Assembly: GCF_000149955.1 (NCBI RefSeq)
Contig: NW_017264850.1
Span: 1-64,000, forward strand
Length of the DNA stretch: 64,000 bases
From: Fusarium oxysporum f. sp. lycopersici 4287
Lineage: Eukaryota; Ascomycota; Sordariomycetes; Hypocreales; Nectriaceae
Reading direction: 5' to 3'
Below, piece by piece: positions 10,081 to 62,208 of the stretch. Positions within the stretch are counted from its first letter, which is position 1. Each line of letters begins with the position of its first letter. The notes beneath the pieces are model-generated. The model was not told the DNA's origin. It did not search any database and saw only the letters and a program-made list of their open reading frames with translations. Both the position numbers and the translations under genes were made by a program.

Positions 10081-10082
10081 CC

Positions 10083-12391: not shown

Positions 12392-14131
12392 ATGTCTCGT
12401 TTGGTAGGATTCCTTATCAACGCCAGAAGTCCAAGTACTTGTATATTTCTTCTATTCGCCAGCGTAAGTGGAACATTCTCAAAGACCTCTAACACTTTGA
12501 ATCATGGTGCAGAAATACCGAACTAACATGCATTGACCGCCGGTAGCTGGTGCTATATCTCATCGGCAAGATAACATATAATGTTTTCTTCCATCCTCTT
12601 CGCAAATTTCCAGGCCCCATTCTATGGTCTATGACACAAATACCTTTCTCCCTAGCATGGACTTCCGGCGCTGGTCACAAGAAAATATACGACTTGCACC
12701 AAATCTATGGCGATATCGTTCGTGTCGCCCCCAATGAACTTAGTTTCGGCTATCCGGAGGCTTGGGAAGACATTATGGGCCATCGAAAACGTGGACAGGC
12801 CGAAAATGGAAAGGATCCCGATTTCTGGAGAGGCAATGACATCTACACTCTGGTAGGGTCTGATCGTGACAGGCATAGTAGGCTCCGAAAGATCTTGTCG
12901 CACGGATTCTCTGCACAGGCCATGATGGAACAGCAACCAATCTTCCAACGCTACGTGAACCTGATGATGAAGAAGCTTAGAGAAGCTTCGTCGAGCGGCC
13001 AATCTGTTGAGATGACTCAGTGGCTCAACTGGGCTACTTTCGACATGGCGGGAGATCTGATATTTGGCGAGTCCTTCGGCTGCCTCGAAAAGGTAGAGTA
13101 TCACTCATGGGTGAAACTTCTGTACAAACACATCGAAGGTTTTGCTGTGTCTACAGCCTTGATTAGATATCCCTTCGCCGACACCATCATTAAGCTCATG
13201 ACCCCCAAACATGTCGCTCGAGACATCAAAGCCCACAGTGATTTCACAAAGGCACAAGTTGGAAAGCGTATGGCTTATGAAAACCCCCGACCGGACTTTA
13301 TGGAGTCAATGATAAGAGCGTACGAGAAAGGTGTACGATTAGCCACCCTTACTCTACTACAAATGCTGACAGGTCTCTCTAGCATGTCAATCATGCAGAG
13401 CTCCTCGCCAACGCGCATAACTTGATCATCGGCGGCTCGGAGACAACTGCAACCACTCTTGCAGGCACTATATATCTGTTGGCTACACACAGACCAATCC
13501 TGATGAAGCTCTATGCAGAAATAAAGGAGCGGTTCCGGAGCGAAGAAGAGATTGATCTTCTCAGTGTTCAAAAGCTCGAATACATGTTTGCAGTCTTGCA
13601 CGAGGGACTTCGCGTTTACCCAGCTGTACCAGCCGCAATCCCTCGTAAGACAAGCGAAGCGGGTATGATAGGAAAACACTACGTTCCAGCCAATGTAAGT
13701 GCATGACTCTCCGTTCCATGCGAGCATTGACAGCTGCTCACACTTATGCTAGACCATCGTTTCCATTTGGCCGTGGCCCATGTTTCACAACCCCAAGTTC
13801 TTCAAGGATGCCGAGGTCTTTGTACCTGAGAGATGGCTTGGCGATCCCAAATATGCGGACGATAAAAGAGTTGCAGTGCAGCCCTTCTCTGTTGGCCCCC
13901 GGAACTGCATCGGTAAAAAGTGCGTCCCAAAACCTTGGACACTGTACTACAGCGCTAACCTGCTTCAGTCTGGCCTACGCCGAGATGCGCCTGATCCTTG
14001 CTAAATTGATATGGAACTTTGACATCGATCTTGACTCTCGTAGCGAGGGATGGTTGGGAAAGAACACTGCGTTCCTTCTCTGGGAAAAGCCAGAACTCTG
14101 GGTTCGCCTCACTCCGCGATCTGATATCTAG
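12392..14131 (+). CDS. Cytochrome P450 monooxygenase
   Basis: Heme-thiolate monooxygenase, ER-anchored. Five exons (12392-12463, 12547-13332, 13383-13694, 13753-13919, 13969-14131) fit in phase and give 499 residues. Hydrophobic N-terminal anchor, then the proline hinge HPLRKFPGP. I-helix oxygen-activation motif GGSETTAT at ~303-310; ExxR as EGLR at ~360-363; PERW at ~415; heme loop FSVGPRNCIG at 435-444 with Cys442 as thiolate ligand, continuing into the exon-5 helix LAYAEMRLILAK. The pattern resembles the CYP65 group (trichothecene C-15 hydroxylase and relatives). As first gene of the CCTCGG-bearing region it may perform the opening hydroxylation of the cluster substrate; that role is inference. 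Confidence 0.93.
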
Positions 14132-14727
14132 GTAGACGAGTAGCCAAATCATCGACCTTGGGATTGTGGATAAGGGCTGGGTATTGGACGGGGCCGAGGT
14201 TATCAAGAGCTTCTTGAACTAGTGTGTAAACGAGTTATGAGTGGCCCAGGAAGAATGTCCGAGGTTGTATTCGAATAGTGCGAGAAGTTTGGAAGGCATT
14301 TTTGTTACTGAAGTTGTGAAGCTGATAAAGCTGACGGCTGATGCTTGCCCCGCGCGTCTTACCGCAAAGCTTTAAATTTTGTGATATCTATCTGTAGCTT
14401 CGTGCCGTGTCTCAAAGCTCGTCTTTCACCCCGACCTTTGTTTCCATGGCATTAGTCAAGACTCCAGGCAACCTGGAAGGACACCTAGGATAAAACCTCA
14501 ATCTGATAGCAGCTACTTTAAGCCATAAATATGTATATGAGTCGGTATAAACCCGTCTATTAAGTGTCTCTACCACGCTGTGAGTATTTGTATAAACATG
14601 AAAAACAGAAACAGCGGGACAAGAGAAAATGCAAACTTGCGGTGCGATTGAAATGTATTTCCACCGGTGGCTTGATTGGTAGGATATCTCATTGCTTGAT
14701 ATAGCCTTCTTGCCATCCCGATTCCTC
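14132..14727. other. Convergent 3' intergenic region with two CCGAGG sites
   Basis: About 600 bp between the ends of the P450 and acyl-CoA dehydrogenase genes. CCGAGG occurs at 14194-14199 and 14259-14264. Being 3' to both genes, these copies are less likely to act as promoter sites. No gene seen. Confidence 0.45.
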
Positions 14728-16182
14728 TTAAAGTTTTGCCGCGTTCAGTGCCTTCGTCTTTGACTGATACGCTTTGACAAGCTGACGAATAGCCAAATCA
14801 AACATGACGTCTTCAGTTCCTCCGGGGATCCTTGCAGCTGGTACCTCTCTATAGATCTTCTCCACCAGCTCTCCCTGCCCCGTACGGGTATAGCCATTAC
14901 CTCCAAAGAGCAGAACTGCACAGCGAGCACATTCATCAACGACCAGCCCCGCTTTGGCTTTGGCCAGTGCAACCAGACCTCCCAGACTCTGACGCATATC
15001 TGGGTCCTCAAGGTTGGAAAGCTGGTAGACCAACTGCTCTGTCCAGGCTGAGATCGATTCGAGTTCTGCACCAGCCCTGGCTAGGCGATTGCGGACGACT
15101 GGTTGGTCCATTAGAGGCTTTCCAAAGGCCTCGCGCTTGAGAACATATGCGAAAGCTGCTGAAAGAGCTGCTCTGGCTGAGGAGACAACACCAATAGAGA
15201 TTGCAAGTCTCTCGTGGTTGAAGTTCCGAGTAATCATCTTCATACCCTGACCTTCCTACCGCCAGACAAATTAGTGGGCAAGGACATATTAGAAAGCGAA
15301 AAAGCTCGTACCTGACCGATCAAATTCTCAATCGGAACTTTGACATCCTCGAGATCAATGAAGGTGGTGCCGCTTGTTGTCCCACCGCTTGTTTTCATTC
15401 GGCGCATGGTGACTCCTGGATAGTCGAGTAGTGGAACTACAAGAAGCGACAGACCTGAAGCTCCTGGGCCTCCTGTACGAACGGCCATGGTAGCATAGTG
15501 CGACCAGATGCCGTTTGTTATCCTAGATTTCGCAAACGATTCGGTAAGCATACTCTTGACTCATGCATGGGTTAATAAGAATCGGACCAACTGACCACTT
15601 CTTCTCTCCATTCACGATATAGAACTTTCCGCAAGGACTCCTCTCAGCAGTTGTGGTGATATTGGCCACGTCACTACCGGCGTCAGGCTCAGTGATGGCG
15701 ATGCAGATCCTCTTCTTCCCCTTGATCAGATCCGGAAGTAACTGTTTCTGCAGCTCCGCGCTACCATATAGGATGATAGGAGGCATACCGTAGGCCATGC
15801 CAGTGGACAAGGAAGAAGCCGGACCACCAATGCCCATCCTGCGCATTTCAGTGATGTAGATGGAGAAGTGCATGTAATCGAAATCTTCAATCTTGAGACC
15901 CCCTGCGAGCTCAGTGATGCCGAGCCTCTTTAGCATGGCAATTGGCAGTGGTGCGGGCAAATTGGGAATGAGCATGTGGTGCTTGGAGAAGGTCTCAAAG
16001 ACATGATCAGGGACGCTTCCTTCGGTCTCCCATTGTAGTGCATGTGGTGCCAAGTGCTCTGAGATGAAATCGCGGCATGCTTTTTGCCATTTCCTATGAG
16101 ATTCGTTGTAGTAAGGTGATGGTAGACCGTTGAGCCATGGGGGTTCAGAGAATGGCACTGGTATGGATAGCGCTGAGCTCAT
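14728..16182 (-). CDS. Acyl-CoA dehydrogenase with peroxisomal PTS1 (AKL)
   Basis: FAD enzyme introducing an alpha,beta double bond into an acyl-CoA. Exons 15596-16182, 15312-15522 and 14728-15255 join in phase (GTCAGT...CTAG and GTACGA...GTAG) to 441 residues. ACAD marks: ITEPDAGSD with CIAI before it (middle beta-domain), GEKKWITNG, and C-terminal helices with FGGNGYTRTGQGELVEKIYR. At the MCAD/SCAD catalytic position the sequence reads IPGGTED, lacking the usual Glu; a Glu in FNHERLAIS sits where isovaleryl- and long-chain-CoA dehydrogenases keep their base. The C-terminus NAAKL ends in AKL, a good PTS1, so I infer a peroxisome. It is divergent from the MDR gene across a CCGAGG-bearing promoter. 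Confidence 0.9.
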
Positions 16183-16631: not shown

Positions 16632-17905
16632 ATGGCATCTCGTGGCATACAAGCTGCACGGTTCTTCAGTTCTGCTGCCCCGTTACGAACACTACACTGC
16701 ACCAGCGGCAAAACCACCATGAAGGCCGTAGTCATTAATGGCGATCAAGCCCGACTCGACCATAGCCGGCGTTTGCCAAGACAAGCAGACGACATGCTCC
16801 TCGTCCGACCAGTCTCCGTGGCACTAAACCCAACAGACTGGAGACACATTCGGGGCCGCAGAGCAAAAGACGGCTGTATAGTAGGCTGCGACTACGCAGG
16901 CATTGTTGAGTCAGTCGGGTCAGCCGTTACCAAAAAATGGAAGCCAGGCGATAAGATATTCGGCGTCGCCCATGGAGCAAATCTTGTCAACCCTGATGAT
17001 GGAGCCTTTGCCGAGGTGATATCTGTTATTGGAGACTTGCAGATGAGGATGCCGGATTCACTGAGCTTCCAACAAGCTGCGACTTTGGGTCTGGGAACAG
17101 GAACTGTTGGACAGGGCCTTTTTCAGAAAAGCTTGAAGCTGAAACTACCAAGTCCGTCAGTGTCGGACGTGATCAGGCATGATGAGCCGGTTCTAATCTA
17201 CGGCGGCGGTTCTGCGACTGGGGCACTGGGCATTCAATTTGCCAAGGAGTGAGTCTACAATCCATTACAATGTCATACAATACAGATGTGATATTGACCG
17301 ATTTGATGTGATAGAGCTGGGTATACGGTCATCACAGTCTGCGCGCCCGACCAATTCGAGTACGCCAAGAACTTGGGCGCACATTTCGCCGTCGACTATA
17401 AAGATCCCGAAGCTGGACCCAAGATCCGCGAATACACGAATAACAAGCTGCGACTTGCATGGGACACCATCAGCATCCAAGACTCGGCGCGCATATGTGC
17501 TGAAGCTCTTACTAGCTCCTCATCAGCAAACCCTGTATATGGAAGCCTTCTTCCGACCAAGAACCCACGCGCAGACGTGACCTCGATCGCGACAGTGTTT
17601 CATACAACTTTTGGTCGGAGCTTCAATTTCGGTGGACAGCATATGCCAGCTAGCAAGGAAGACTATGAGTTCGGCAAGTCATTTTATGGTCTTGCGGAGC
17701 AATTGATAGCGCAGGTTCGTTGTACCCCAACTCTTCGAGGAATGATTCATGCTGACTAGACCTGCCTACCTAGGGCCGAATTCGACCGCATCTGGGCCGC
17801 GTTGGAGAGGGCGGATTGAAAGGTGTGATAGATGGCTTGGCTGAACTGGAGGCCGGCAAGGTCCAGGGCGAGAAACTTGTCTATAATGTTGCAGATACGC
17901 CTTGA
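16632..17905 (+). CDS. MDR-family NADPH-dependent enoyl reductase / alcohol dehydrogenase-like
   Basis: Zinc-free medium-chain dehydrogenase/reductase of the type that reduces enoyl or quinone double bonds. Exons 16632-17248, 17315-17714 and 17774-17905 join in phase to 382 residues. The GroES-like fold is seen from MKAVVINGD (residue ~31) through SVALNPTDWRHIRG and GCDYAGIVESVG; the NADPH motif is IYGGGSATGALGIQFAKE, continuing in exon 2 with AGYTVITVCAPDQFEYAKNL. Zinc-ligand cysteines of alcohol dehydrogenases are absent. The pattern matches fungal LovC-like/ToxD-like reductases. The first ~30 residues (MASRGIQAARFFSS) could be a weak mitochondrial presequence, or translation may start at the ATG at 16722. 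Possible role: saturating an enone or enoyl-CoA. Confidence 0.85.
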
Positions 17906-18132
17906 AGAAGTCTACTTCCCAAGTTCATCTTATGTAGTTACTGAGCAATAATAATGAGAGCCAAACCTACAGCATTCATTTCTATTGATCCCTAAATTTC
18001 AGAATGGAACGTTGTATGCAGCTATGAAGAAGCTCTTTAGAGATAGGAACTCACAGCTGGTATTTGATTTTTTATTATCTAGAGCCATCTCCTCGTCTGT
18101 CCACCCTTCTCCTCAATAAGAATATACTTGAC

Positions 18133-19086
18133 TCAAAAGCTCTTGCACGCGGCAAGGCGGTTAGCAAAAGCCCTTTTTACAACAGCAGAAGTAGGTGCAA
18201 ACCGCTGAAAAGCATGCGGAACACCCTCATAAATGTGAAGCTCGGTAGGAATATCCGCCTCGATAAACCGCTGAGCATAAGCAACATCCTCCCGGAGAAA
18301 CATATCAAGCCCACCACAATCGACATACAGAGGAGCAAGCCCCTCGAAGTCCTCTAGACGTGCCGGAGCGGCGACTGGTGGCACTTTGTCGGTTTTGTAA
18401 AGGTCTCCCAGGTATGACATCCAACCCGTCAAGATATCTTGGTAGCCGAAAATAGCGAGACCGCCAGTCGTATCCTTCTCAGTGCGATCGTCAAGCATAG
18501 GATAGATGAGAATCTGTTTCGCTAGTGGAGGAGATAACTGCCTGTCCCTAGCAAGGATGGCCAAAGCCGCTGCCAGTCCACCTCCCGCGCTTTCACCCAT
18601 GATAGCGATACGCGTTGGGTCAAGGCCGAGTGCAGAGGCATTTTTCTGGACATGGAGTAAAGCAGACCAGCAGTCCTCCAGCGGGATGGGAAAAAGGTGT
18701 TCGGGAGCGAGTCGGTAGTCAACCGACAACATGGGGACCCCAGTGGCAGAGACGTAGGCTGCTAGTGTTGCGGAATAGTCGCTTGCGCTAGAACATGTGT
18801 ATCCTCCCCCGTGAATATGAACGATACCAGGCCCGCGCCGTTCAAGGTCACTATTCCTCTGCCGAAAGTGCAGGATCTTCACTTTGAACCCATCTGACGC
18901 TTCAGTGGAATGGACCTGCATCTCGACATTCTCTGGTAATGCTTGTTGAGCGCCTGGTCCCCGAATGAATTCTTCTATTCTTTTTCTCCTACTTTCCACG
19001 TCACCAACTGGAAAGACATGCTTGTGTGCTTTGATTGCAGTAGCACCTAGCTCATAAAACTCAGGGTCGTATTGAAGACGAGACAT
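18133..19086 (-). CDS. Alpha/beta-hydrolase-3 (HSL-type) esterase
   Basis: Serine esterase or lactone hydrolase, intronless, 317 residues. HGGG oxyanion-hole motif at 92-95 (HIHGGGYT), nucleophile elbow GESAGG with Ser166, acid Asp261 in CGGLDMFLRED, and His291 in GVPHAF: a complete catalytic triad of the hormone-sensitive-lipase family. No signal peptide, so intracellular; the C-terminus CKSF is not a clear PTS1. A clear paralog lies at 55518-56483 (same start MxxxQYDPEF, same motif spacing). Next to a Baeyer-Villiger monooxygenase it is a good candidate for cleaving the resulting ester or lactone; that role is inference. Confidence 0.9.
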   Translation of the reverse strand: MSRLQYDPEFYELGATAIKAHKHVFPVGDVESRRKRIEEFIRGPGAQQALPENVEMQVHSTEASDGFKVKILHFRQRNSDLERRGPGIVHIHGGGYTCSSASDYSATLAAYVSATGVPMLSVDYRLAPEHLFPIPLEDCWSALLHVQKNASALGLDPTRIAIMGESAGGGLAAALAILARDRQLSPPLAKQILIYPMLDDRTEKDTTGGLAIFGYQDILTGWMSYLGDLYKTDKVPPVAAPARLEDFEGLAPLYVDCGGLDMFLREDVAYAQRFIEADIPTELHIYEGVPHAFQRFAPTSAVVKRAFANRLAACKSF

Positions 19087-19996: not shown

Positions 19997-21949
19997 CTAC
20001 ACCGACTTGATCTCGACACCTTCGTGCCTACCATTCTCCCGCCAGGCCCTCAAAATGTTATTGTAGTCCTCCTGTCCTTTACCCCAAATCGACGTTCGAG
20101 CCATTCGAGCAAGCTTCTCTGGATCCCTGACATTCTCAAACTCCCCCTCGGCGTTGATGTAGCTGGGCGTGCAACCCGCCGAAGCTCCAAACATGTGAGC
20201 CTGACTTACAATCTTTTGCGCCCATTTCTCCTCCGCATCTTCGGTTGCCTCGATGGTAAAGTTGTACTCATAGCGTTTGTCGCTGGAAGCCTTGGACCGA
20301 GTTTCCTTGGCGCCAGTGGCCACGATGTAAGCAAACTGCTTGGCGGCTTGCTCGGCGATGAATGTGTAGTTGGGATTCCCACCGCCTTGGATGAAGCCTG
20401 GCCAGAACATGTTTGGGAAATCGTGGCTCATCATTCCATGTAGCGTTGTCACACCAGAGCTCCATTTTGCGTCTAAATCGGTCCCGTTGCGGCCAAGAAC
20501 TTTGATCCCGACCCTGCCTGGTGGACTGTAGAGAAACGGACTCTTGTAGCCTGTGCTTAGGACAAGTACATCAATATCAAAATGTTCTCCTTCAACAACG
20601 ACCCCGTTCTCCGTGATCTCCTGAACGCCTCGTCCATCAGTATCAACAAGATGTACAGAGGGGTTGTTGAATGCGTCGAGATATTCGTCGTGGAAGCACG
20701 GTCTCTTGCACCAACCGGAGTACCAAGGCTTCAGCTTGGCTGCAACCTCCGGGTCCTTGACCAGATCATCGATACGCCCTCGCACTTTGCTTTGTCTCTT
20801 GAGGTCAAGCTCCTCCAAGTAGGCGTAATATTTCTGTATCTCCTGCGGCGTCTTTGGATCATAGCCGGGTGATCCTGATATCGCACTGTAAGATGGCATA
20901 TTGGTCCAGCTATCGTTGACGAGGTCGAGCGCCGGTTTGGGATTATGGTTATTCACATGGGCACAGTAGTTGAGACATCTCGCCTCCCACCAGCCAGGTT
21001 TGTTAGCGATCTCGTTCTTGAACAAGTCTTCTTCCGTCTGGCGGTTATATCTGGCGGCCACAGCAGACGCTGTCCGCTGAAAGACATAGACCTCCTTGGC
21101 CCATTTCGCTAGCTCGGGCAAGATCTGGATGGCTGAAGCCCCCGTACCGATGAGTCCAACCTTCTTGGCTCTCAGTCGTGTCATTGATGGATCATCTGGG
21201 GTTCCCCCGGTGGCGTTGTAGTCCCAACGAGCAGGGTGAAAGCAGTCCCCTGTGAACTTTTCGATTCCCTTGATCCGAGGGACTTGAGGAACCAGCATGA
21301 GGCCTGTAGTGAGGATGACGAACCGGGATGTCACAGTAACAGCTTCATGCTCTTTGCCACCGTGCACGAGTTCAGCGAGTTTCATAACCCACTCTTTTTT
21401 ATCGTCGTCCCAGATACATTCGTCCATTCGAGTCCGAAACCAAACTCGGTCTGTCAAGCCATATTTCGCGGCTATCCGCTCAAGATGCATCCGAATCTCC
21501 TTCCCGGTCGAATACTTGTTCTTGGGCATGTACCCTGTCTCCTCAAGTAGAGGCATGTAGATGTAACTCTCAACGTCACACATGAGTCCAGGATAGCGGT
21601 TCCAGTACCAAGTACCACCCCAGCCTGCTGCAGTGTCGATAAACTGAAGATTCTCAGGCTTGATCCCAGCCTCCACCAGTCTCGCTGCGAAGAGCAGAGC
21701 GCCTATTCCGGTACCAACAATTGCGAAATCGCAACTGTCCCCATTTGTAGCGCGTGGCAGTTTATCATATGTTGATTGATCTGCCCAAGGATCCTGCTTG
21801 AAGTGATGGAATTTTGCAACGCTGTACAAGTCGGTGAATTGGCTGAGGCCGTCACTGCGCAGCCGCTTGTCGTGTTCCTTCTTGTACCGCTGTTTGACTT
21901 CAGCAACGCTTGTCGCAAGTACGCCATTTGACTCTGCGGATGGGCTCAT
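19997..21949 (-). CDS. Baeyer-Villiger monooxygenase (BVMO 1)
   Basis: FAD/NADPH type I Baeyer-Villiger monooxygenase, which inserts oxygen next to a ketone to give an ester or lactone. Intronless, 650 residues, within the long-form fungal range. First Rossmann motif GTGIGA at 79-84 (FAIVGTGIGALLFAARL); BVMO signature FTGDCFHPARW near residues 222-232, matching FxGxxxHxxxW; second Rossmann motif GLIGTGASAIQ shortly after; C-terminal MSHDFPNMFWPG block. About 70 residues precede the FAD fold. No membrane helix or PTS1 (ends EIKSV). Three CCTCGG/CCGAGG sites lie within 320 bp upstream. Its neighbour is an HSL-type esterase. The ketone substrate is unknown. Confidence 0.93.
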   Translation of the reverse strand: MSPSAESNGVLATSVAEVKQRYKKEHDKRLRSDGLSQFTDLYSVAKFHHFKQDPWADQSTYDKLPRATNGDSCDFAIVGTGIGALLFAARLVEAGIKPENLQFIDTAAGWGGTWYWNRYPGLMCDVESYIYMPLLEETGYMPKNKYSTGKEIRMHLERIAAKYGLTDRVWFRTRMDECIWDDDKKEWVMKLAELVHGGKEHEAVTVTSRFVILTTGLMLVPQVPRIKGIEKFTGDCFHPARWDYNATGGTPDDPSMTRLRAKKVGLIGTGASAIQILPELAKWAKEVYVFQRTASAVAARYNRQTEEDLFKNEIANKPGWWEARCLNYCAHVNNHNPKPALDLVNDSWTNMPSYSAISGSPGYDPKTPQEIQKYYAYLEELDLKRQSKVRGRIDDLVKDPEVAAKLKPWYSGWCKRPCFHDEYLDAFNNPSVHLVDTDGRGVQEITENGVVVEGEHFDIDVLVLSTGYKSPFLYSPPGRVGIKVLGRNGTDLDAKWSSGVTTLHGMMSHDFPNMFWPGFIQGGGNPNYTFIAEQAAKQFAYIVATGAKETRSKASSDKRYEYNFTIEATEDAEEKWAQKIVSQAHMFGASAGCTPSYINAEGEFENVRDPEKLARMARTSIWGKGQEDYNNILRAWRENGRHEGVEIKSV

Positions 21950-24240: not shown

Positions 24241-24830
24241 TGCTATATGCGTAGCGTGATCCGAAATGATTATTAGTTTTCTTGGGAAAATTTTACTTAA
24301 CAGATCAAAGAGAATCAGAAAGGTCGGACGTAGGATAGTTCCGCCTGGATACTTATACCATTCATCCTCAATATCCAGACAGCCACCAAGGCATTAGTTA
24401 CTTCTATGATATTCTCCTACTAGACGACGGCCTCGGCGCTCAGACTCAAAAATGGTTGTTGTTCCACCTCGGGCAACAAACATGTTCTGTGGTATTGAGT
24501 TCCTCTAGCTAAAAGGTTAGTTTATTCACGTTTTTAGGACCTCGGGGCCAGCTGGGAAACTAAGATTTTCAGACACTAATGCTTGCCAGAATCCGGGGTA
24601 ATCCGGGGTAGGTCAGAGTAGTCCCAGGCGAATCAAGAAGTATAGAGCAAGTGGGCACTGTAAAACAGAATGAAGTTGTAAAGAAGTCTATAAGAGCATG
24701 CTGGTCAACGTATTAAGATTCTGCTCTATCAAAGTCTTGCTTAGAATAATGACGATTATTATTTAAATGCTTTTAGTGTTGCCCTTGAACTTATATGATT
24801 CCTAAATAATTCGGAACGGTCAATGGCTGG
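24241..24830. promoter_or_regulatory. MFS transporter promoter: three CCTCGG sites and a 10-bp tandem repeat
   Basis: CCTCGG at 24431-24436, 24467-24472 and 24540-24545, all in direct orientation, 190-305 bp upstream of the transporter ATG. Immediately beyond, the decamer ATCCGGGGTA occurs twice in tandem at 24591-24600 and 24601-24610; its first nine bases recur at 51399-51407. CGGGG/CCCCG are typical half-sites for Zn2Cys6 or C2H2 regulators. The remaining 200 bp is 3' flank of the regulator gene. Confidence 0.6.
24591..24610 (+). repeat. Tandem decamer ATCCGGGGTA x2
   Basis: Two exact adjacent copies of a 10-base unit, about 350 bp upstream of the sugar-porter gene. Probably a regulator-binding site; no known factor is claimed. 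Confidence 0.8.
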
Positions 24831-51648: not shown

Positions 51649-53103
51649 TCACAAATTCGCAACAGCTCGAATTCTGTCAGCCGTTTCCCCGAGAGCAAAG
51701 TCGTTTCTGTGTTTCTTGCTCCTGACTCTTTCGGCATCATTGGAAGTTATCCCTCGGGCTTCAACCGCTGGATTATAACCGAGCCAGCTATGTTTAGCCA
51801 CCTCACCATCGCTAATCTTGATGTTTGCTTGTCCATCGGCGCGCTTATACACGTTAACAACCACCGCGCCTCCGAGGCCAAGATTGTGCTGCAGCGCGAC
51901 GCGTGTTTCACTACAAAGTCGCGTATTGGCCCACCCGCGTAGCTGCCAGGTCAGCTCAGCACATTGAGCCAATCCCGTAGCTCCAATTGGATGGCCTTTT
52001 GAGATCAGACCGCCAGATGGATTGATCACCATCTTGCCCCCAAATGTAATATCTCCTCTTCGGACCATCTCATGCGCCTTTCCTGGCTCGCAGAAGCCGA
52101 GGGCATCTAGGAGTAGCATCTCGTTTGCGGAGAAGCAGTCGTGCAATTCGCATACCCGGATATCATTCGCTGCCACGCCCGCTTCAGCTAAAGCTGCTTT
52201 TGGCGGCCCTTTTGTGACATGTCATACCCGACGAGCTCCATTGCACTATTACCAAATGTCTTGGGGGAGTCGGTGCAAAACGCCTGCCCAGCCATTAAAA
52301 TGGCCTGTCCTTTGAGATGTGGCCGGGTAGCGAGGAACCTTTCCGACACAATGACTGCAGCTGCGGCCCCGTCGCTGGTTGGGCTGCATTGCAGCTTCGT
52401 CAGAGGCGAGTAGATGGTAGGTGAGTCCTGAATCTCCTTGAGGCTGTATTTCTGCTGGAACTGGGCGTAGGGGTTGCGCTGCGAGTGCTCATGCGAAACG
52501 CGAGCAATTTCTGCAAAGTCCTCTTTCTTTGCCCCATATCTGGTACAAATCTTGTTAGCTGTAATCTACAAAAACAGAAAAACATGGGTGGTTTGATCTG
52601 ACTTACTTTGTCATGTATTCTCGGCCTGCGTTTGCAAAATACTGCACCGTCAGAGGAGAGTTTGAAGGCTCAGCCAACTCTCGCATCTTGGCGGCAAAGC
52701 GACCACTTGAACTGGGTCTATCACTCCAGACGCTCTTGAGACTTCCGGGATTCATCTTCTCGAATCCCACCACGAGCACGCAATCGGCCTTGCCGCTCTG
52801 AACAAGCGTACGAGCCAGATACAGGCCGACAGATCCCGTAGCGCATGCATTGCCCGTGTTGACGATGGGAATGGATGACATGCCAAACTGGTAAAATACG
52901 CGCTGTCCCGAGGTTGAGTCTCCATAGGCAAAACAGGCCACGCCATGCTCAACGTCGTCGTAGTTGATCTGGGCGTCTAGCATGGCTTTAATGCCGGCTT
53001 CGTAGCCTAAGTCTGGATACTGGCGGAGACCACGGGGCTTGATAAACTTCGTCATGCCAACACCAAGGACATAAGCCTTGCTCGATCGTGTTTCGCTTGC
53101 CAT
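51649..53103 (-). CDS. SCP2-type thiolase; apparent frameshift
   Basis: Thiolase of the SCPx/sterol-carrier type, which cleaves 3-oxoacyl-CoA including 2-methyl-branched chains. Exons 52607-53103 and 51649-52539 (67-nt intron with GCTAAC branch). N-terminal [10 protein letters not shown], active-site Cys in [18 protein letters not shown] motif in [10 protein letters not shown], and the second motif [13 protein letters not shown] with [13 protein letters not shown]: all catalytic features are present. At ~52203-52213 the frame changes between [10 protein letters not shown] and [14 protein letters not shown]; eight bases lie where six are expected, so a 2-nt insertion or 1-nt deletion is implied. 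No SCP2 lipid-binding domain follows, and the end VANL is not a clear PTS1. Likely cleavage enzyme of the branched-chain spiral. Confidence 0.85.
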
Positions 53104-53707: not shown

Positions 53708-55112
53708 ATGGGGTCACATCAAGATACTGAGGCTCGTAGCCGTCATGATCTCGATGACGAGGCTCTGGGAAGCCATTTACTCTCATCACAAGAAATGCCC
53801 AATCTAAAACTTCCAGTCACAACATCCAAGATTGGATATGGCCAAAGCAATCCCACTTACTACCTGGATGACGCTGCGTGAGTACCTGAATGGTGAACCT
53901 TTACGTCAGATATCTTAATCTGCGTCTAACTAATAGAGCACAGCGGAGTAAGATACATCTTGAGAAAGAAGCCTGTTGGGAAGGCCATCAGCCCGGTTGC
54001 CCACCAGGTAGATCGTGAGTTCAGAGTATTGAAAGCTTTGGGATCCATTGAAGGGTTTCCAGTTCCCAGGGTGTTCACATTGTGCAATGACAGCTCTATT
54101 ATTGGCACCCCATTCTACGTTAGTTTAATAAATCTGAATGTTTATTCTTCATGCTAACTTGGATATTCAGGTCATGGAATTCGTCAAAGGGAGAATCATC
54201 ACGGATACGGACATGGAAGAGCTTTCTCCAGATGAAAGACGGCAGGCGTATGTCTCGGTGCCACTAATAGAATATGTGACTTGAAATTCAGCTAACGATG
54301 TTGTTGCTTGTAGATGGTTCTCCGCTATCGAGACTCTGGCTTGGCTTCATTCACTGGATCCAGACATGATTGGACTTGAGGGTTACGGCAAGAAGACGGG
54401 ATTCTATGCTCGACACTGCTCCACGTGGAGTCGCATTGAGTTGCAGCAAGCTGCTGTCAAGCATGTTAAGACTGGAAAACCTTTGGGTCGAGCTCATAAG
54501 AGGTATGACGAAGTGGTAAGATATGTGCGAGAGAACGTACCGTCAGATCGACACGCGATTGTCCACGGAGACTTCAAATTCGATAACTTGGTATAGTCCC
54601 TCTTCCACCTTCGTAAAGCAGACGAATTGCTAACAGCTTCCTGCCAAAAGGTCCTTCACCCAACTGAGCCAAGAGTTATTGCTATTCTCGACTGGGAACT
54701 GTCCACCATCGGCCATCCACTTATGGACCTCGTCTTCTGCATAAGTCCTTTCTTCTCTGACTATACCAAGAGTGGAAAATCGTCCCTGTCACTCCAGGAC
54801 TCCCCATACAAGCTAGAACATCGAGCAAGGTCGGGTATTCCTGAGCCAGATGAACTTCTGGCCCGCTATGCGGAGATTGTGGGGTTCGACATGCGCCAAG
54901 ATAACCGAGGTAAAGACTGGGATACCGCGATAATCTTTCACTACCTTCGAGGAGCAACTATAGCTCATGGAATCCAAGCAAGATCTATTAGTGGACAGTC
55001 CAGTAGTAGCTTCAGTCATCTCTATTTCTCAAAGACTAGGCAGGCGATTGAAGCAGCTCTGCGCCGTATTGAATCCCTGAAGGATCAGCAAACATCAGAA
55101 AGCAAGCTTTAG
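53708..55112 (+). CDS. APH-family kinase like the ACAD10/ACAD11 N-terminal domain, PTS1 SKL
   Basis: Aminoglycoside-phosphotransferase-fold small-molecule kinase. Five exons (53708-53877, 53944-54118, 54171-54247, 54314-54590, 54651-55112) join in phase to 386 residues. [12 protein letters not shown] is the glycine-rich ATP loop, YILRKKP holds the ATP Lys, [14 protein letters not shown] and [11 protein letters not shown] follow; catalytic HGDFKFDN at ~225-232 and metal-binding [12 protein letters not shown] at ~245-256. This pattern is that of the kinase domain fused to acyl-CoA dehydrogenase in ACAD10/ACAD11, which phosphorylates 4-hydroxyacyl-CoA so the dehydrogenase can remove it; bacterial LvaA is analogous. 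Here it stands alone, ends in canonical SKL, and a PTS1-tagged dehydrogenase is in the same cluster. Substrate by inference: a hydroxyacyl-CoA. Confidence 0.88.
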
Positions 55113-55517: not shown

Positions 55518-56483
55518 ATGCCTCTTCAATACGACCCCGAGTTTTGGTCTGTGTTGGAGCCGCTCGTTCCAGTACTGTTCAAGCGAGAGCCGCTTTCCCT
55601 GGATAATATCAAGGCTGGGCGGGAGGCACGAGAAGCTGGCATGAGGGCACTCTTTGACAGGTTGGACATCTGTCCAGAAGTGGAACAAAGATCGTTTGAA
55701 GTGAAAGCTACTGATGGTTACATCATATCGATTCTCGCTCTCACCCCAACAGTTTCTCGGTCCGACCCTGGACCCTGCCTACTACACTTCCATGGAGGAG
55801 GCATGATATTAGGGTCCGCAGAGATTCAAGCAAGGCCACTAGCACAATTGGTCAGCGCAACATCAGTGCCTGTGTTCAGCGTCAACTACCGGCTGGCGCC
55901 GGAGTTCAAGGGAACCATTCCTGTTCAGGACGGCTACGCGGCTCTACTTTGGCTGAACAGTAAAGCGAAGGAGTTCAGTGTCGACCCGAGCAGAATCGCG
56001 GTGTTAGGAGAGAGCGCAGGTGGTGGTGTTGCCGCTGGTGTTGCATTGATGGCTCGAGATAAGGGATTGAAGCCGCGCCTAGCTAAGCAGATCCTCCTGT
56101 ATCCCATGATAGACGACCGAAATATGGTTGCCAACGAAGCGATGGAGCCTCTTGCATTTTGGAAGACTGCAGACAACGCAACGGCCTGGACTGCGCTCCT
56201 CGGAGATCAAGCAGGCCAACCGGAAGCTCCCATCTCGTACTACTCGGCTCCTGCTCGAGCTCCGAGTCTAGCTGATCTTCCGCCAACATATATCGAAGTT
56301 GGAGGTCTTGATATATTTCTGCAAGAGAATGTCAATTATGCCACTAGACTGCTGGCCGAAAATATCCCTACCGAGTTGCATGTGTATCCAGGTTTGCCTC
56401 ATGGCTTCGAGATGATCGCACCAAACATTACCGCTGCAAAGAAGGCCAATGAAAATCGCCATAGAGCTATAATGGGTATCTGA
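55518..56483 (+). CDS. Alpha/beta-hydrolase-3 (HSL-type) esterase, paralog of 18133-19086
   Basis: Intronless, 321 residues. HGGG at 92-95 (HFHGGGMI), Ser166 in GESAGGG, Asp in VGGLDIFLQEN and His in GLPHGFEM: a full catalytic triad at nearly the same positions as in the first esterase. Shared MxxxQYDPEF start, VNYRLAPEF, LAKQILLYPMIDDR. It lacks a signal peptide and a PTS1 (ends IMGI), so cytosolic. Two diverged copies at opposite ends of the cluster suggest cleavage of two different esters or lactones, matching two or three Baeyer-Villiger-type enzymes. Specificity unknown. Confidence 0.9.
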   Translation: MPLQYDPEFWSVLEPLVPVLFKREPLSLDNIKAGREAREAGMRALFDRLDICPEVEQRSFEVKATDGYIISILALTPTVSRSDPGPCLLHFHGGGMILGSAEIQARPLAQLVSATSVPVFSVNYRLAPEFKGTIPVQDGYAALLWLNSKAKEFSVDPSRIAVLGESAGGGVAAGVALMARDKGLKPRLAKQILLYPMIDDRNMVANEAMEPLAFWKTADNATAWTALLGDQAGQPEAPISYYSAPARAPSLADLPPTYIEVGGLDIFLQENVNYATRLLAENIPTELHVYPGLPHGFEMIAPNITAAKKANENRHRAIMGI

Positions 56484-56716
56484 ACCTCTGATGTTAGAAA
56501 ATTGATAGTGTTTGAGTTTGATCTTAGGCCACACAAATTGGGGTGCAGTCAGGTGGCAATAGAGAAACAACGACGAGATAGTGTGATAGGCCTGTCTTCC
56601 TTGCAAGGGGATATTTGATGCAATTGAGTAACTCATTCTGGTATCAGTAGGTCTACTCGTATAAAGGGTTGACGTCCGTCAACAGTGTATACATCTCTTC
56701 TTTCCAGTCCGTAAAA

Positions 56717-57962
56717 TCAAAAGTCGAAAGCGTCAAGAACCTCGTGATCGTCCATCATTGTACATATGCGTCCAATAAAACATAGACATGCCTCTTCCGT
56801 CTGCATGTCAGGCAGGTTCTCAGAAGGTGTAAGAGTAAGCGTCCAATAAGCCAGTACACCGAGTGACTGTCTCCGCAGCTCAAGCCATGCTTCCTCAACA
56901 CTAACACTAGGGCCTCCGTGCTTTCTGAGCTCTGACACATACATCTCAACCATTTTCATGCTCCCACTGACGGCGCTTCTCTGCACTTACAGCCGTACCC
57001 AGGACGTATGCGAGGTCACGAGACCAGTGTCCTCTTGCAACTGTCTGGCCAGTCTGTCAGGCCCATATGTCCATCAGGTGTTATATACCAGTTGCCTTGA
57101 GGAGAACAATCATGTCAGCGTCTATAGCAACAGGGGGTAGGCCTCGGTCTATAACTTGGGTCGGAGTCACATACCGAGATGAACATCTCCATGAACCACC
57201 GTCGCTGGGAGCGCAGCATTACGCTCTACTGACTTGAGCGTACAAGGCCCAAATTTCATTCTGCCTCGCAAATAGTCGTGGGGGAATTACCGACTTTGCA
57301 GCCCTGAATCCGTTGACGCACATGGTCTCGAGGCCAACTTCGATCAAGTTACTGATCCGGTCTTTATAGATGAGCAACCGTTCGAAATCGGGATGTTGAG
57401 ACTGATAGTACTGGCTATGTAACTTTGCCAACATCTGAACCTGCTCGGCGAACTGAGCTTTGGTTAAGCCTGTCTTGTAGTTGCAGAATGTGGTCTCTTG
57501 GCCCATATCTTTTAAGATCACAATGGCGGCCCATGATTTTGGATCATAGCCAGCAAAATATGCCCACGGCGCCTCAATGTTGAGCTGAGGTCGTATGTGA
57601 TTATAGAAGCAGACCTCGCTGTAGGTACCTCCCGCGGCCAAGACGATGCGATTCTCTGCAGAATGAGCTGCCTTGCAGAAAACTGAAGTTGGGAGCTTGT
57701 GTGCTCCAAAGCCTTCCCATTCGATTTCGATACGACGTCGATTTGCAGATCCATCATCTTTTGGACCTAAACTGAAGCTCTTGATAGTTGATCTAAAAAC
57801 ATCTCGGGCCAAAGTGGCGGTCAGCCATTCTTTAGTGATAGCTTCATATGAGACAGGGATATCTCCATATTCTCTTGGGACTGGAGGATTGAGCTCCTCC
57901 TCTTTGCAACTTCGTCGAACATGCTCGACGATATCCTTTCGCAGTGATCCAATTTGTGACAT
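56717..57962 (-). pseudogene. Second APH-family phosphotransferase, frame broken three times
   Basis: Small-molecule kinase of the APH fold, distinct from the one at 53708. Residues 1-~245 are open (57962 to ~57240): MSQIGSLRKDIVEHVRR, VFCKAAHSAENRIVLAAGG, AAIVILKDMG, QMLAKLHSQYY. The catalytic loop VVHGDVHLGN and metal motif GLTDW follow across an intron at 57096-57174, then ARGHWSRDLAYVLGTA and a helical tail EEAWLELRRQSLGVLAYWTL. To connect these, surplus bases must be skipped near 57236-57242 (WALY to LKSVERN), at 57047-57052 (GGCC run after GLTDW) and at 56953-56956 (a run of four A/T). Three insertions within ~300 bp suggest a pseudogene or local sequence errors. It is divergent from the racemase gene. 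Confidence 0.75.
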
Positions 57963-58347
57963 CTGTCTGGCCTTCTAGTGTTGAGGTAGGTCTCTCAATG
58001 ATCAAACGTCTCTCAATGATGTTGGCTTAGAAACCATGCAAGTTTATATGGCCTATCCTCCTCGGCAACCTTCCCACTGTCATGGTTTCAGGCTGGGTGC
58101 CCTCGGGCTCTCGCCCGTGTTCCTACATGCTGAGCCAGTCGGTTAGGTTTGACAAGGATTACGGTTAATGCAACTCGCTCTTCACCATTGACATGCCGAT
58201 CTTATAATTATACTTGTTTTGGAATGGGATATGGCTAAGAAAAGCCACACCAAAAAGAACAGACATAATAACATTGTGTACCGGCACAAAGTCAAGGCCT
58301 TTGTTCACTCGCAAGTAATTAAATATATCGCTCTTCGTATGATATCC
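57963..58347. promoter_or_regulatory. Divergent promoter second kinase / racemase with two CCTCGG sites
   Basis: CCTCGG at 58060-58065 and 58101-58106, direct copies 41 bp apart, about 100-140 bp from the kinase start and 240-290 bp from the racemase start. Confidence 0.55.
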
Positions 58348-59566
58348 ATGTCACCTCTTACAGGCCTGCGAGTCGTGGAGCTTGCAGGTCTCGCCCCAGG
58401 TAGGTTTGGCCGTCGAGTCTAATCCCATCCCAAGTATAACGATCCCTGCAATTAAGTCTGACTTGATATGTGATTTGTTAGGTCCCTTCTGTGGGCAGCT
58501 TCTCTCTTCATATGGTACCTCGGTTCTCCGAGTCGATCGCGCAGGTGTCTACGAAAACCAGGACATTCTGACATCCTACAAGTCATCTATTGTCTTAGAC
58601 CTCAAGAACAGACATTGTATCCGCCTCCTCAAAGGCCTTCTCGATAAGGCTGATATCCTGATTGACCCTTTTCGACCTGGCGTTCTCGAAAGACTGGGCT
58701 TATGCCCCAGTTCTGTTCTTCTCGTCTCAAACCCACGTTTGATCGTGGTGCGTATTACTGGTTTTCGCCGCGATGGTCCATATAAGGATATGGCCGGGCA
58801 TGATATCAACTACCTGGCTGTCTCTGGTGTGTTGAGTAAGCTTGGAAGTAGCGGACTACCACCATCGGCGCCTGGTAACCTCCTCGCAGACTATGCAGGG
58901 GGAGGTTTGGTTGCCTTTGCAGGTGTTCTCATGGCCCTTTATCATCGAAGCTCGACAGGCAAGGGCCAGGTAGTCGAAGCGAGTATGGTAGATGGCGTCT
59001 CATACATAGGAACCATACCGCGACTGAGGTCCGACGAGCCTGCTTGGAACGGCGGAAAGGGAACCAACCTGTTAGATGGAGGTTGCCCTTACTACCAATG
59101 TTATGAATGTAAAGATGAAGGACGGTACATATCTGTTGGCGCACTGGAGCCTCAGTTCTTTGAGAACCTTCTCCAAGGCCTGGGATTGACAAGCGACAAC
59201 ATTTTAAGCCCGGGTCTGCGGCGCGAGGACAAGCGTTCGTGGCCACGGATGCAAGAGGTATTTGTCAAAACGTTCAAGGAGAAGACACGCGAGGAATGGG
59301 AGCACATATTTGACGGTTTGAACGCATGCGTTGCCCCTGTTATCGAGGACAAGGAGATGGAAGAGGCGGGTTACGAACAGCGACCAATAGTAAACCTGAC
59401 TGCCACGCCGGCGAGACCGGTAGACACACAGTGGAAAGGCAAGCGGCTGAGTCCGGGTCACGGCGCAGAGGAGACATTGAAGACGTGGATGAACTGGGAG
59501 CATGGTGAAGACTATGCGATTGATCAAGGAGTATATCTGTTGCGTCCAGTGGATTCTAAACTTTAA
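58348..59566 (+). CDS. Alpha-methylacyl-CoA racemase, PTS1 SKL
   Basis: Family III CoA-transferase-fold racemase interconverting (2R)- and (2S)-2-methylacyl-CoA, needed before peroxisomal beta-oxidation of methyl-branched acids. Exons 58348-58399 and 58482-59566 give 378 residues (an ATG at 58339 would add three). Start LRVVELAGLAPGPFCG and DPFRPGVLERLGLCPS are AMACR hallmarks; catalytic His124 in DMAGHDINYLA and Asp154 in NLLADYAGGGL are both present; GKGQVVEASMVDG follows. The C-terminus DSKL is a canonical PTS1. Its presence is the best single hint that the cluster substrate carries an alpha-methyl branch, as isoprenoid or sterol-side-chain acids do. Some fungal AMACR-like proteins are true CoA-transferases, so activity needs testing. 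Confidence 0.9.
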
Positions 59567-59628
59567 CTCAGGTTCATTTCCAGAGCCACGTCGGCACAAG
59601 CCAATAGTATCAACGAAGGAAAACTATA

Positions 59629-62208
59629 TCATATAAAGTTCGATAAGTTCACAGTCATTAGACTGTCTGCATCGCCTTCAGTGTTGAGAAGAGTTGGCAA
59701 CAGTGTCTCAACATCGCACCAAGACCCTGGGAATGGCGACCCGGCCAAAAGATCACTCATGTCGGTAGTAGTCCAGCTTTCCATTACCATATTTGGAAAT
59801 TCCATCGGTACTCGTGGCTGTTGGGCCACTGTAACTGTCCGACTGCTATCGTCTTGACCTAAGCCCGGCTCCTCTGCCGCAGAGTCTTGGTTCCAGTTGC
59901 CCGAGGTGCTCGGGCTCGGATACATGCAACTTGCCGCAACGGTGTTAGGTCCCATATCTAGCCGAGGCTTATACGCCGCGTTTTCGCGTTCTCCAAACTT
60001 GCTTCCCCCGGTCGGTAAAGTCCAGGGAACGTGAAGACCAGTGTTCTTTAGTATCGAGTTGAGAAATTGCATGGCGTAGTCCGCAGATGTATACATCTCT
60101 TGTAGCTGCTGAAGGACGTTTACGCACTGGTAGAGGCGTCCGAGACTGAGACTCCGGGCTTCCTCGTCGTCTGAGCATGTGTTGAAGAGATGGACAAGAG
60201 TGACAGCGAGATAGGCTGGAACGGCAAGGGTCGGTAGGAAACGCAGTTGGTTATCCCGCTGTAGGTTGAAGGCCAATTTGGTCATCTCGACTGCTGTGTC
60301 CGTTACATTTCCCCTCGATACTGTGCTGCCATCATTTCTCGCACCATCGTTGTTGGAGCCGAAGCAGAAGACCTGCGGCCTATGGAGAGCACCCAATGCC
60401 GTTAGGTAGACCATTCGAAGCTGGGCCTGGTGAAGTCGCAATATCTCATCAGCATGTAGCTCGTCGGTCGTACTAGTAACAGGCGGCCGTGATCCGGTCT
60501 TGGCAGTGTAACGAGAGTGGATGTTCTGACTCTCAAGCCAACCTTTGAGCTCGGTACTGCGTTCAGAAAGTGATTTGGCTTGCTCTGGGGATCTATCGGG
60601 CCGCCCAGTCAATTGCTGACTGTACTCAACCCCTCCGAGGTAATTGCCCATAACCGTGTACAAGGTGTTGAGAGTACGTCCAATGTAGACGCATAGACTA
60701 CTTAGTTCAATGCACATTATAGCCAGACTTTGTCTCTTTTCTGAATTTGGATATGTGGCCTTCAAGTCCTGGAACAATCTATCCAGGTTTGTCGATGGGG
60801 AGCTGAAGTCAAAGTCGTCTAAGGTGAGCGGCTTGACGTTGTAATCATCCTCTCTTAGACGCGGCGGATTCCGTAATCCAAGGGCCAGTAAACGGTCCCT
60901 CATCAAACAGCACCACCATAACCTTCGACGGAGCTTCTTCTCTTGTTGCGATATTTTCAGGTGTTCGGGATCTCGATGCAAGCCCCCAACTTGGGCATTT
61001 GTCAAGGCGATACCCATCCAATGCCACGTATCCTTGTCATCGTCTGGGCAATCATACCAGTGACTCAACAGCAGAAGAGACTGAATCAACGCCATGCGAT
61101 CCGACTCATAATTTAAACTGTAGAGAATCCTGACACGGTCGTAAAAGTCTTTCCTAGCCGCTAGTCGTGAAGCATAACCTCTTGAATGCAGAGTCTTGAG
61201 GTCCACAAAAGTGACGCTGACAAAATTGACTGCTTGGAATAGCAGAAGGCTGATGGGGTTACGGCCGTTGTTGTGAAGGATAGCGCCAGCATATTCTTCG
61301 ATATCGAGGATTGGCAAGAAGGAATGAACCACTGTGATGTAAACACGTAGCAGTTCATCTCTAAACTCTGGATCTGGAATCGACAAGCACAGTTTATGTG
61401 ATAAATAGTACATATCTCTATTATCTAGGTGTTGAGGAGGGGGTCGGATGAAAGCTGGTAATGATGTTGTGATTCTTTCTGGCTGGGATGGTGCAAAAGG
61501 TCCACTGGAGGTTCTCATCTCTTCTACATAGTCGAATGGAGCGTCGAGGTTCACGCCTTGCATGGGCGCAGGCGGTTCTGTGTTTGACGGCTGGTCGTCA
61601 TGGACCTGAACGTGGATTTCATCCATGGGCTCTCCGTCAGCGGGTTGCTGTTGCTGGTCTGGACACGGCAAGTCAGTTCACTGTTTAGAACCACGAAAGC
61701 ACACACAATAGTACATACCGAATACAGAAATTTCGGTCGCATTGAGTGGTTGAGAACGAGACCGGGGGTCTTCATCCTCTGGCTCAATTTCTGCCTCAGC
61801 GTCGGGTTCATCGGGTTCAGATAACTCTTCTGGCTCAAGAGACTCCGGCACTGCAGCAGGTAGACATGAGGTCACAAATATCGGTGGGGGCGAACCAGAA
61901 GAGCGGTCGCGAGCAGCGGGCGGGTTCGAATTGCGGCGACGCTGGCAAGAGGCGGCGGTAGGTCTCCGACCCCGATTTGACTCTTTCAGAACGCAATTAA
62001 TGCTGTCAAGTCGACAATTCGTGCAAGGAACACCTCCATCGGTGACGTCGCAACGAACTTTACGGTTTCGGCATGATAGACAGGCCTTGGATGAGCGTCT
62101 CTTCCACGGGCGCTGGCCATCGCAAGGGGCGCTTCGTTTTGCTGACGATGCTGTTGCCCGGTTGGACGGGTCACCGCTCGGCTGGGAAGAGGGAGGTTGC
62201 GAAGGCAT
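59629..62208 (-). CDS. Zn2Cys6 transcription factor, CTF1-beta/FarB-like (regulator B)
   Basis: Paralog of regulator A (24831-27142). Exons 61719-62208 and 59629-61658 (60-nt intron, GTATGT...TCCAG) give 839 residues. Zn2Cys6 at C43, C46, C53, C62, C65, C72 (KACLSCRNRKVRCDV, CTNCRLDSINC), same spacing as regulator A. A strongly acidic stretch (~residues 120-150, many Glu/Asp/Pro) follows and could activate transcription. Regulatory domain: RVYITVVHSFLPILDIEEY, LLLLSHWYDCPDDDKDTWHW, RRRLWWCCLMRDRLLALGLR. The intron position differs from regulator A, indicating old divergence. By family, the target would be CCTCGG, found in nearly all cluster promoters. It closes the cluster on the right side. 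Confidence 0.9.

Follow-up and report, generated by a model that had tools for sequence, protein, structure and literature searches.

Fungal enzymes of terpenoid detoxification have, according to one account, been characterized from Grosmannia alone, where the G. clavigera Baeyer-Villiger monooxygenases (BVMOs) CMQ_6956 and CMQ_7007 are implicated in limonene detoxification (PMC8120277). A terpene-responsive cluster of 30 genes has been described in G. clavigera, and five of these genes have an Ophiostoma piceae homolog (PMC3680317). One of the two BVMOs lies three locus tags from CMQ_6959, an acyl-CoA ligase that is reported to be 1107-fold up-regulated on monoterpenes (PMC4368105). We analyzed the first 64,000 bases (the window) of a contig of 162,807 bases (NW_017264850.1, designated C66) in the 61.2-Mb, 71-contig genome of Fusarium oxysporum f. 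sp. lycopersici 4287. About 28 adjoining genes, spanning positions 12,392-72,410 when reading was continued past the window end, probably constitute a dedicated catabolic cluster with a shared CTF1/Far-type control box, serving ring opening, peroxisomal branched-chain beta-oxidation, and a terminal 3-hydroxy-3-methylglutaryl-CoA (HMG-CoA) module. The substrate would be a cyclic, methyl-branched isoprenoid, plausibly a monoterpenoid.

The succession of functions predicted in an initial annotation of the window (ring oxidation, beta-oxidation of alpha- and beta-methyl-branched chains, HMG-CoA recovery) finds support in a common upstream motif, C-terminal peroxisomal targeting signals of type 1 (PTS1), protein families, and gene linkage. 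That annotation had drawn a cluster of about 50 kb at 12392..62208; the cluster is indeed found there, but four more genes carry it to 72,410. The monoterpene-type ketone proposed there as the substrate is plausible. Predicted to be co-regulated and marked by compartment tags, the cluster gives a plant-associated Fusarium a whole pathway that can be tested. It includes two BVMOs, an HMG-CoA lyase fused to a hydratase, and a candidate 4-hydroxy-acid route of a kind reported from mammals and Pseudomonas. A Fusarium cluster of such make-up was not found described in the open-licence literature.

The genes, which are interrupted by short introns, were modelled without transcripts by our own splice-aware script (5' ends are approximate for TF1, TF2, TF3, and ACAD3, listed below), assigned to families with Pfam and NCBIfam, many of them by the largest exon alone, and compared with solved structures. 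The families named initially are present by Pfam: a cytochrome P450, two BVMO-class flavin-containing monooxygenases (FMOs) and a third FMO, a short-chain (SDR) and a medium-chain (MDR) dehydrogenase/reductase; two Abhydrolase_3 hydrolases and a CoA ligase; two acyl-CoA dehydrogenases (ACADs), an SCP2 thiolase (also by structure comparison), and a thioesterase; an HMG-CoA lyase - enoyl-CoA hydratase fusion (HMGL-ECH) and an acetoacetyl-CoA synthetase (TIGR01217, above cut-off); and, within the window, a sugar-type major facilitator superfamily (MFS) transporter, a mitochondrial carrier, and two Fungal_trans regulators. Two labels needed refinement: the supposed NTF2-FMO is an FMO by Pfam, its NTF2-like part being a likeness to structure 8acs without a Pfam match, and the two class III enzymes both belong to CoA-transferase-III, one being racemase-like and the other nearest to succinate-hydroxymethylglutarate CoA-transferase (SUGCT). 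Three genes had gone unlisted: an ACAD11-type kinase, a further gene near 57 kb that looks kinase-like by eye, and one for a Vgb-lyase-like protein that appears to be secreted.

The Fusarium cluster resembles that of G. clavigera in size, in combining two BVMOs with an acyl-CoA ligase, and in beta-oxidation; an HMGL-ECH homolog 65% identical is known in that species. It appears to differ in that no epoxide-hydrolase family was matched in the scanned pieces (several genes were partly scanned), both hydrolases being Abhydrolase_3 proteins, and in its kinase and SUGCT-like gene, which are not mentioned for Grosmannia in the passages available. The abstract of Wang et al. 2014 reportedly names an epoxide hydrolase. 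On paper, a menthone-like route (two Baeyer-Villiger steps and two ester hydrolyses) would yield 3-methylglutarate and so account for the two BVMOs and two esterases. The parallel drawn initially with Grosmannia holds in part: against the HMGL-ECH homolog stands the finding that neither BVMO1 nor the kinase has a Grosmannia-named entry among its 120 best listed matches, some of the entries being nameless. The likeness in working is a partial one, and it is doubtful that the locus is a Fusarium version of the limonene/monoterpene-utilisation cluster of G. clavigera directed at p-menthane monoterpenoids.

Proposed ring oxidation and branched-chain beta-oxidation

The P450, MDR, and SDRs would produce a ring ketone, which BVMO1 would convert to a lactone and an Abhydrolase_3 enzyme would open; BVMO2 and the second hydrolase may then repeat the oxidation and opening on a chain ketone. 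The genes assigned to these steps, with that of an FMO-like flavoprotein, are as follows (positions in the window unless stated).

12392..14131, forward strand: cytochrome P450, 5 exons (PF00067)
16719..17905, forward strand: MDR (PF08240 on the first exon)
18133..19086, reverse strand: alpha/beta hydrolase 1 (Abhydrolase_3 by Pfam; 40% identity to hydrolase 2)
19997..21949, reverse strand: BVMO1 (PF00743)
39340..41316, reverse strand: BVMO2, with an N-terminal extension of about 150 residues (PF00743)
44180..45276, forward strand: SDR (PF00106)
45825..47912, forward strand: FMO-like flavoprotein with an extra N-terminal domain (PF13738/PF00743)
55518..56483, forward strand: alpha/beta hydrolase 2 (Abhydrolase_3 by Pfam)
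71.61-72.41 kb of the contig, beyond the window: second SDR (Pfam)

BVMO1 is 99% identical to BKA60DRAFT_638663 of F. oxysporum. The structure relatives of BVMO2 are phenylacetone, steroid, and cyclohexanone monooxygenases, and the FMO-like flavoprotein matches 8acs over residues 79-675 (E 4e-80).

The acid released would be activated by a peroxisomal CoA ligase and would pass through a peroxisomal branched-chain spiral of racemase, ACAD1 or ACAD3, FOX2, and SCP2 thiolase, with a thioesterase for release. With FOX2 come a hydratase and a hydroxyacyl-CoA dehydrogenase, both of which were missing from the set recognized initially.

14728..16182, reverse strand: ACAD1, acyl-CoA dehydrogenase ending AKL (PTS1; first exon with PF02771 and PF02770, last exon with PF00441)
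41704..43628, forward strand: acyl-CoA ligase ending ARL (PTS1; PF00501/PF13193)
48502..49685 (open reading frame bounds), forward strand: TesB-type acyl-CoA thioesterase ending SRL (PTS1; PF13622, PF20789)
51649..53103, reverse strand: SCP2 thiolase (type 1), frame-broken at about 52.19 kb (two pieces, matching PF00108 and PF22691)
58339..59566, forward strand: alpha-methylacyl-CoA racemase-like protein ending SKL (PTS1; PF02515)
66.13 to about 67.6 kb of the contig, beyond the window: ACAD3, third acyl-CoA dehydrogenase (Pfam)
68.12-70.99 kb of the contig, beyond the window: FOX2, with two SDR domains and an MFE-2 hydratase-2/MaoC part (Pfam)

The racemase-like protein matches 2g04 (E 7.7e-70) and 1x74 (E 4.9e-67), and the thiolase matches 6hsj (E 4.2e-39); the thioesterase matches TIGR00189 in two pieces, each under the cut-off. 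Strict PTS1 ends were found on five of the 27 C-termini read, which cover every cluster gene but the 57-kb kinase-like one (ACAD1, ligase, thioesterase, kinase, and racemase have them); all five proteins are CoA-ester enzymes or the kinase. The probability of such a count by chance is 5e-9 when computed from composition; with the background assumed to be 1%, it is 7e-6. Weaker PTS1-like ends occur on ACAD3 (TKL), SCP2 thiolase (ANL), FOX2 (THL), and acetoacetyl-CoA synthetase (SKI). Of the 120 homologs listed for each protein, a PTS1 end is carried by 43 of those of the kinase, 45 of those of HMGL-ECH (AKL in 42), and none of those of BVMO1.

Mammalian peroxisomal branched-chain beta-oxidation uses alpha-methylacyl-CoA racemase (AMACR), MFE-2, and SCPx. 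The Fusarium cluster likewise brings together a racemase, FOX2/MFE-2, and an SCP2 thiolase (the last in a frame-broken gene) and has PTS1 on several proteins; unlike the mammalian system, it uses acyl-CoA dehydrogenases instead of an oxidase, and its genes are clustered. As AMACR, MFE-2, and SCP2 thiolase are also the mammalian set for sterol side chains, a bulky polycyclic terpenoid or steroid (a ketone derived from a diterpenoid, triterpenoid, or sterol) was considered as the substrate, its ring opened by BVMO1 and its branched side chain shortened by racemase, ACADs, FOX2, and SCP2 thiolase in the manner of a bile acid. Larger terpenoids or steroids enter consideration because the nearest solved structure to BVMO1, by far, is 5mq6 (E 9.9e-172; next 2.8e-54), a monooxygenase acting on bulky polycyclic ketones. 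Full degradation of steroid rings would, however, call for more ring-cleaving enzymes than are present, and an end module of 3-methylglutaryl type would suit small isoprenoid units; such a substrate is conceivable but unlikely.

Control box and candidate regulators

Fatty-acid and peroxisomal genes are regulated by CTF1-alpha and CTF1-beta in Fusarium and by FarA and FarB in Aspergillus, which bind the sequence CCTCGG/CCGAGG (PMC5068947). This box lies within 1 kb upstream of all 28 modelled genes, at 500 bases or less in 27 and at 669 in TF2, in keeping with the prediction of one regulon. Every promoter-bearing interval contains it (22/22), as against one of seven other intervals (Fisher 1.5e-5, a value overstated because the promoter intervals are longer, with a mean of 624 bases against 379); the one exception, at 14,132-14,727, holds two copies. 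CCTCGG ranks first of 2,080 hexamers, with 39 observed against 3.16 expected, and in a k-mer count CCTCGGC was present in 19 of the 28 promoters, where any 7-mer in 30 shuffles reached at most 13. The 16.4 kb of cluster intergenic DNA holds 41 sites, compared with a mean of 3.9 and a largest value of 10 in 300 shuffles; the box density there, 2.5 per kb, compares with 0.29 for the right and 0.70 for the left flank. Distances of 140-300 bases before the start make up 32 of 52, some sites counting twice because divergent genes share boxes. CGG/CCG pair sites in the promoters gave no clear excess (best 7 seen, 2.2 expected).

Three genes encode candidate binders of the box:

24831..27246, reverse strand: TF1, Zn2Cys6 regulator with uncertain 5' exons (PF04082; zinc cluster read)
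59629..62208, reverse strand: TF2, Zn2Cys6 regulator (PF04082, PF00172)
63069..64000 (3' part, continuing to about 65.5 kb of the contig), reverse strand: TF3, third regulator (PF04082, 25.8 bits, cut-off 23)

TF1 and TF2 are paralogs (38% identical), and all three proteins share the zinc-cluster pattern ACLxCRxRKVRCxV...CxNCRLDxxxCV. The locus appears to share a CTF1/Far-type control box, and it resembles the CTF1/FarA/FarB regulon in carrying CCTCGG upstream of peroxisomal beta-oxidation genes; it differs in being one contiguous catabolic cluster with three candidate regulators of its own. The shared box makes both the limits of the regulon and its regulators directly testable.

The boxes and PTS1 ends would also fit an auxiliary beta-oxidation set, under Far control, for hydroxy-, alicyclic, or cutin/suberin-type fatty acids. 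Fusarium cutinase genes are under CTF1 control (PMC5068947), and core ACAD11-type dehydrogenase genes on contigs C4 and C5 are also preceded by CCTCGG, about 230-380 bases before starts read by eye. Straight chains, however, need no pair of BVMOs, P450, two esterases, racemase, or HMG-CoA lyase, and a search of the genome gave no second copy of BVMO1, the kinase, or HMGL-ECH, the next-best matches being an HMG-CoA lyase on C1 (42-56% by exon), kinases (42-50%), and a BVMO (31%). Fatty acid catabolism as the main function is accordingly judged improbable.

The proposed HMG-CoA end module and the ACAD11-type kinase

In the preferred reading, catabolism of a cyclic isoprenoid, a coherent group of five genes would handle a 3-methylglutarate-type C6 remnant; they are listed here together with the MFS transporter.

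22649..24483, reverse strand: MFS transporter, sugar-transporter family (PF00083)
28426..29414, forward strand: mitochondrial carrier (PF00153, 3 stretches)
29960..31282, forward strand: ACAD2, acyl-CoA dehydrogenase (PF00441/PF02771/PF02770)
32072..33694, forward strand: class III CoA-transferase, SUGCT-like (PF02515 on the last exon)
34256..36566, forward strand: acetoacetyl-CoA synthetase (TIGR01217, 596.8 bits, cut-off 520.9)
37007..38995, forward strand: HMGL-ECH, with a frame break near 38.69 kb (PF00682 and PF00378)

A remnant resembling 3-methylglutarate or 3-methylglutaconate would be imported by the carrier, charged by the SUGCT-like transferase (its last exon is closest to succinate-hydroxymethylglutarate CoA-transferase 9br7, E 5.2e-70), and dehydrogenated by ACAD2, whose arginine-rich N-terminus resembles a mitochondrial presequence by eye. 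HMGL-ECH may then hydrate and cleave it to acetyl-CoA and acetoacetate, the latter being recovered by acetoacetyl-CoA synthetase. Homologs of HMGL-ECH have the same fused architecture; the Fusarium protein, whose model for the family scan and homolog search had a wrong intron that dropped about 40 residues, has a basic, mitochondrial-looking N-terminus (by eye) and ends KSIY, without PTS1.

The end of leucine/isovalerate degradation similarly employs methylglutaconyl-CoA hydratase- and HMG-CoA lyase-type domains; in Fusarium these are fused, and another HMG-CoA lyase is encoded on C1. A leucine-degradation cluster was rejected, as no methylcrotonyl-CoA carboxylase and no carboxylase or biotin family was found in the scanned cluster genes.

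Two kinase-like genes lie to the right of this module.

53708..55112, forward strand: ACAD11-type kinase (APH family) ending SKL (PTS1; PF01636)
56653..57974, reverse strand: further kinase-like gene (so labelled by eye from an HGDVHLG motif; probable frame break)

Among solved structures the first is nearest to 8v3v, the ACAD11 kinase domain (E 1.5e-58); the motif HGDFK.DN is kept, and the catalytic Asp and Asn are retained in the alignment. The second is labelled by eye because its models gave no match in Pfam, NCBIfam, or solved structures.

ACAD10 and ACAD11 are reported to phosphorylate 4-hydroxyacyl-CoAs, their dehydrogenase part converting the phosphate to an enoyl-CoA, and LvaA/LvaC to run this phosphorylation/elimination in Pseudomonas; R626, H634, R637, and D753 are given as the residues of the ACAD10/11-LvaC dehydrogenases (PMC12440821). 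Among the 20 PF00441 loci of the Fusarium genome, this signature occurs in the ACAD frame at just two, on C4 (protein ending NAKL) and on C5. The Fusarium kinase resembles these systems in its catalytic HGD..DN and in the presence of ACAD11-type dehydrogenases in the same genome; it differs in being a separate protein within a BVMO cluster, with the dehydrogenase outside it. The separate kinase and dehydrogenase genes are best read, from their sequences, as a split fungal version of ACAD10/11. Two more separate kinases of ACAD11 type are encoded in the genome (C1 and C5), the one on C5 less than 5 kb from the ACAD11-type dehydrogenase.

Phosphorylation of a 4-hydroxyacyl-CoA arising from ring opening is thus possible: the SKL-tagged kinase would act first, and the C4 dehydrogenase could be its partner in forming the enoyl-CoA. 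We tentatively suggest, at odds well below those of the general scheme, a privately regulated supercluster driven through CCTCGG by three Far-like activators, in which the split peroxisomal kinase, with a partner from the core genome, would feed Baeyer-Villiger-derived 4-hydroxyacyl-CoAs to beta-oxidation. In the open-licence literature, ACAD11/Lva chemistry was not found described for the breakdown of ring terpenoids.

Linkage in other ascomycetes, frame breaks, and surroundings

Comparison with other ascomycetes, proposed initially as a check, shows that the association of BVMO1, kinase, and HMGL-ECH recurs, although it appears modular and all three are rarely together. Among the best 120 matches for each, contigs, recognized by equal length, were shared by BVMO1 and kinase homologs in eight cases, by HMGL-ECH and kinase homologs in seven (one of which, on a contig of 4,854 bases, may be coincidence), and by HMGL-ECH and BVMO1 homologs in four. 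All three anchors occur on one contig in two named species of these lists, Aspergillus nanangensis and Dactylonectria macrodidyma. In A. nanangensis they fall within ten locus tags (FE257_004004, kinase; _004008, BVMO; _004013, HMGL-ECH); the model _004008 is a BVMO fused to a P450 that matches the Fusarium cluster P450, and in a tblastn-type alignment with the P450 portion of A. nanangensis P0152 the Fusarium P450 exons are 58-65% identical. Close pairs of tags are found in Penicillium lividum (N7490_005054/_005064), F. ambrosium (CDV31_012264/_012271), Sporothrix eucalyptigena (SEUCBS139899_002994/_002998), and F. nematophilum (ACJ41O_005607/_005608). Paralogs of ACAD1 on C69 (63%, in a single stretch) and C63 (42%) gave the lead to a sister cluster elsewhere in the Fusarium genome. 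It was rejected for the sequence examined, 50 of the 266 kb of C69 and 30 of the 107 kb of C63, which holds just ACAD, P450, and general BVMO similarity.

Several observations weigh against the preferred reading. One or more anchors are separated from the rest in S. stenoceras, in Cladophialophora psammophila, and in F. falciforme (there HMGL-ECH), the HMGL-ECH of S. eucalyptigena is on another contig, and many species have anchors on different contigs or at distant tags; moreover, the linked BVMO homologs may not be orthologs, because several (A. nanangensis, D. macrodidyma, Clonostachys, F. nematophilum, and F. falciforme) are just 48-54% identical. The control box is not specific to one substrate; 48 copies lie in cluster gene bodies (1.05 per kb), and 560-base pieces contain it in 55 of 162 cases at other loci, 20 of 159 in the right flank, 6 of 20 in the left flank, 17 of 89 on C69, and 11 of 53 on C63 (13-34% across control pieces). 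The kinase lacks a partner inside the cluster, as motif scans rejected ACAD1, ACAD2, and ACAD3 for want of the R626/H634/R637/D753 signature. The compartment of HMGL-ECH is the weakest point of the scheme: mitochondrial placement is uncertain, since 45 of its 120 listed homologs end in PTS1 and the Fusarium form in KSIY. Finally, tblastn frames show that HMGL-ECH (about 38.69 kb) and SCP2 thiolase (about 52.19 kb) shift frame with no room for an intron, and the 57-kb kinase-like gene is probably frame-broken too (by eye).

These breaks reflect either assembly error or decay. Where short base runs occur, assembly errors commonly produce such changes too. That the cluster is decaying in this strain, disabled in these two genes and probably the third, would fit the lack of room for introns and the full-length HMGL-ECH homologs in F. 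proliferatum and others, but BVMO1, BVMO2, the FMO, ACAD2, and the two hydrolases, all of them large single-exon genes, have uninterrupted frames, and the kinase is 100% identical to FOMG_09925 of F. oxysporum f. sp. melonis; we regard decay as rather unlikely. The view that P450, FMOs, BVMOs, MFS, and Zn2Cys6 regulators, all common in secondary-metabolite clusters, represent biosynthetic tailoring is very improbable, as terpene, polyketide, and peptide synthase families were without a match in the scanned pieces (for many genes the largest exon only) and CoA-ester catabolism and end-product recovery dominate, in agreement with the initial choice of breakdown over biosynthesis.

One further gene within the cluster has the control box but no obvious place in the pathway.

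49954..51069, reverse strand: secreted Vgb-lyase-like beta-propeller protein (PF24684; secretion by eye)

To the left of the cluster lie a DUF3500 protein (1349-2616, reverse strand), a fumarylacetoacetate-hydrolase-family protein (3059-4295, forward strand), and a FAD_binding_3 protein (about 5.3-7.1 kb, forward strand) with a 32% relative at 103 kb of the contig; this trio (1349-7081) is perhaps a separate small aromatic-degradation group. It is followed by a predicted protein without a Pfam match (9934-11243, reverse strand). A short imperfect palindrome (10026-10080) and an 83% repeat pair (5105-5179/12095-12168, one copy just before the P450) are possibly remains of small mobile elements; the one Fusarium miniature-transposon end sequence tried gave no match. 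Outside the cluster, the contig falls to 30% G+C at about 97.7-99.7 kb, perhaps in degraded repeats, and elsewhere in the genome P450 matches of identical score on C3/C6 and C3/C15 suggest recent duplicated segments.

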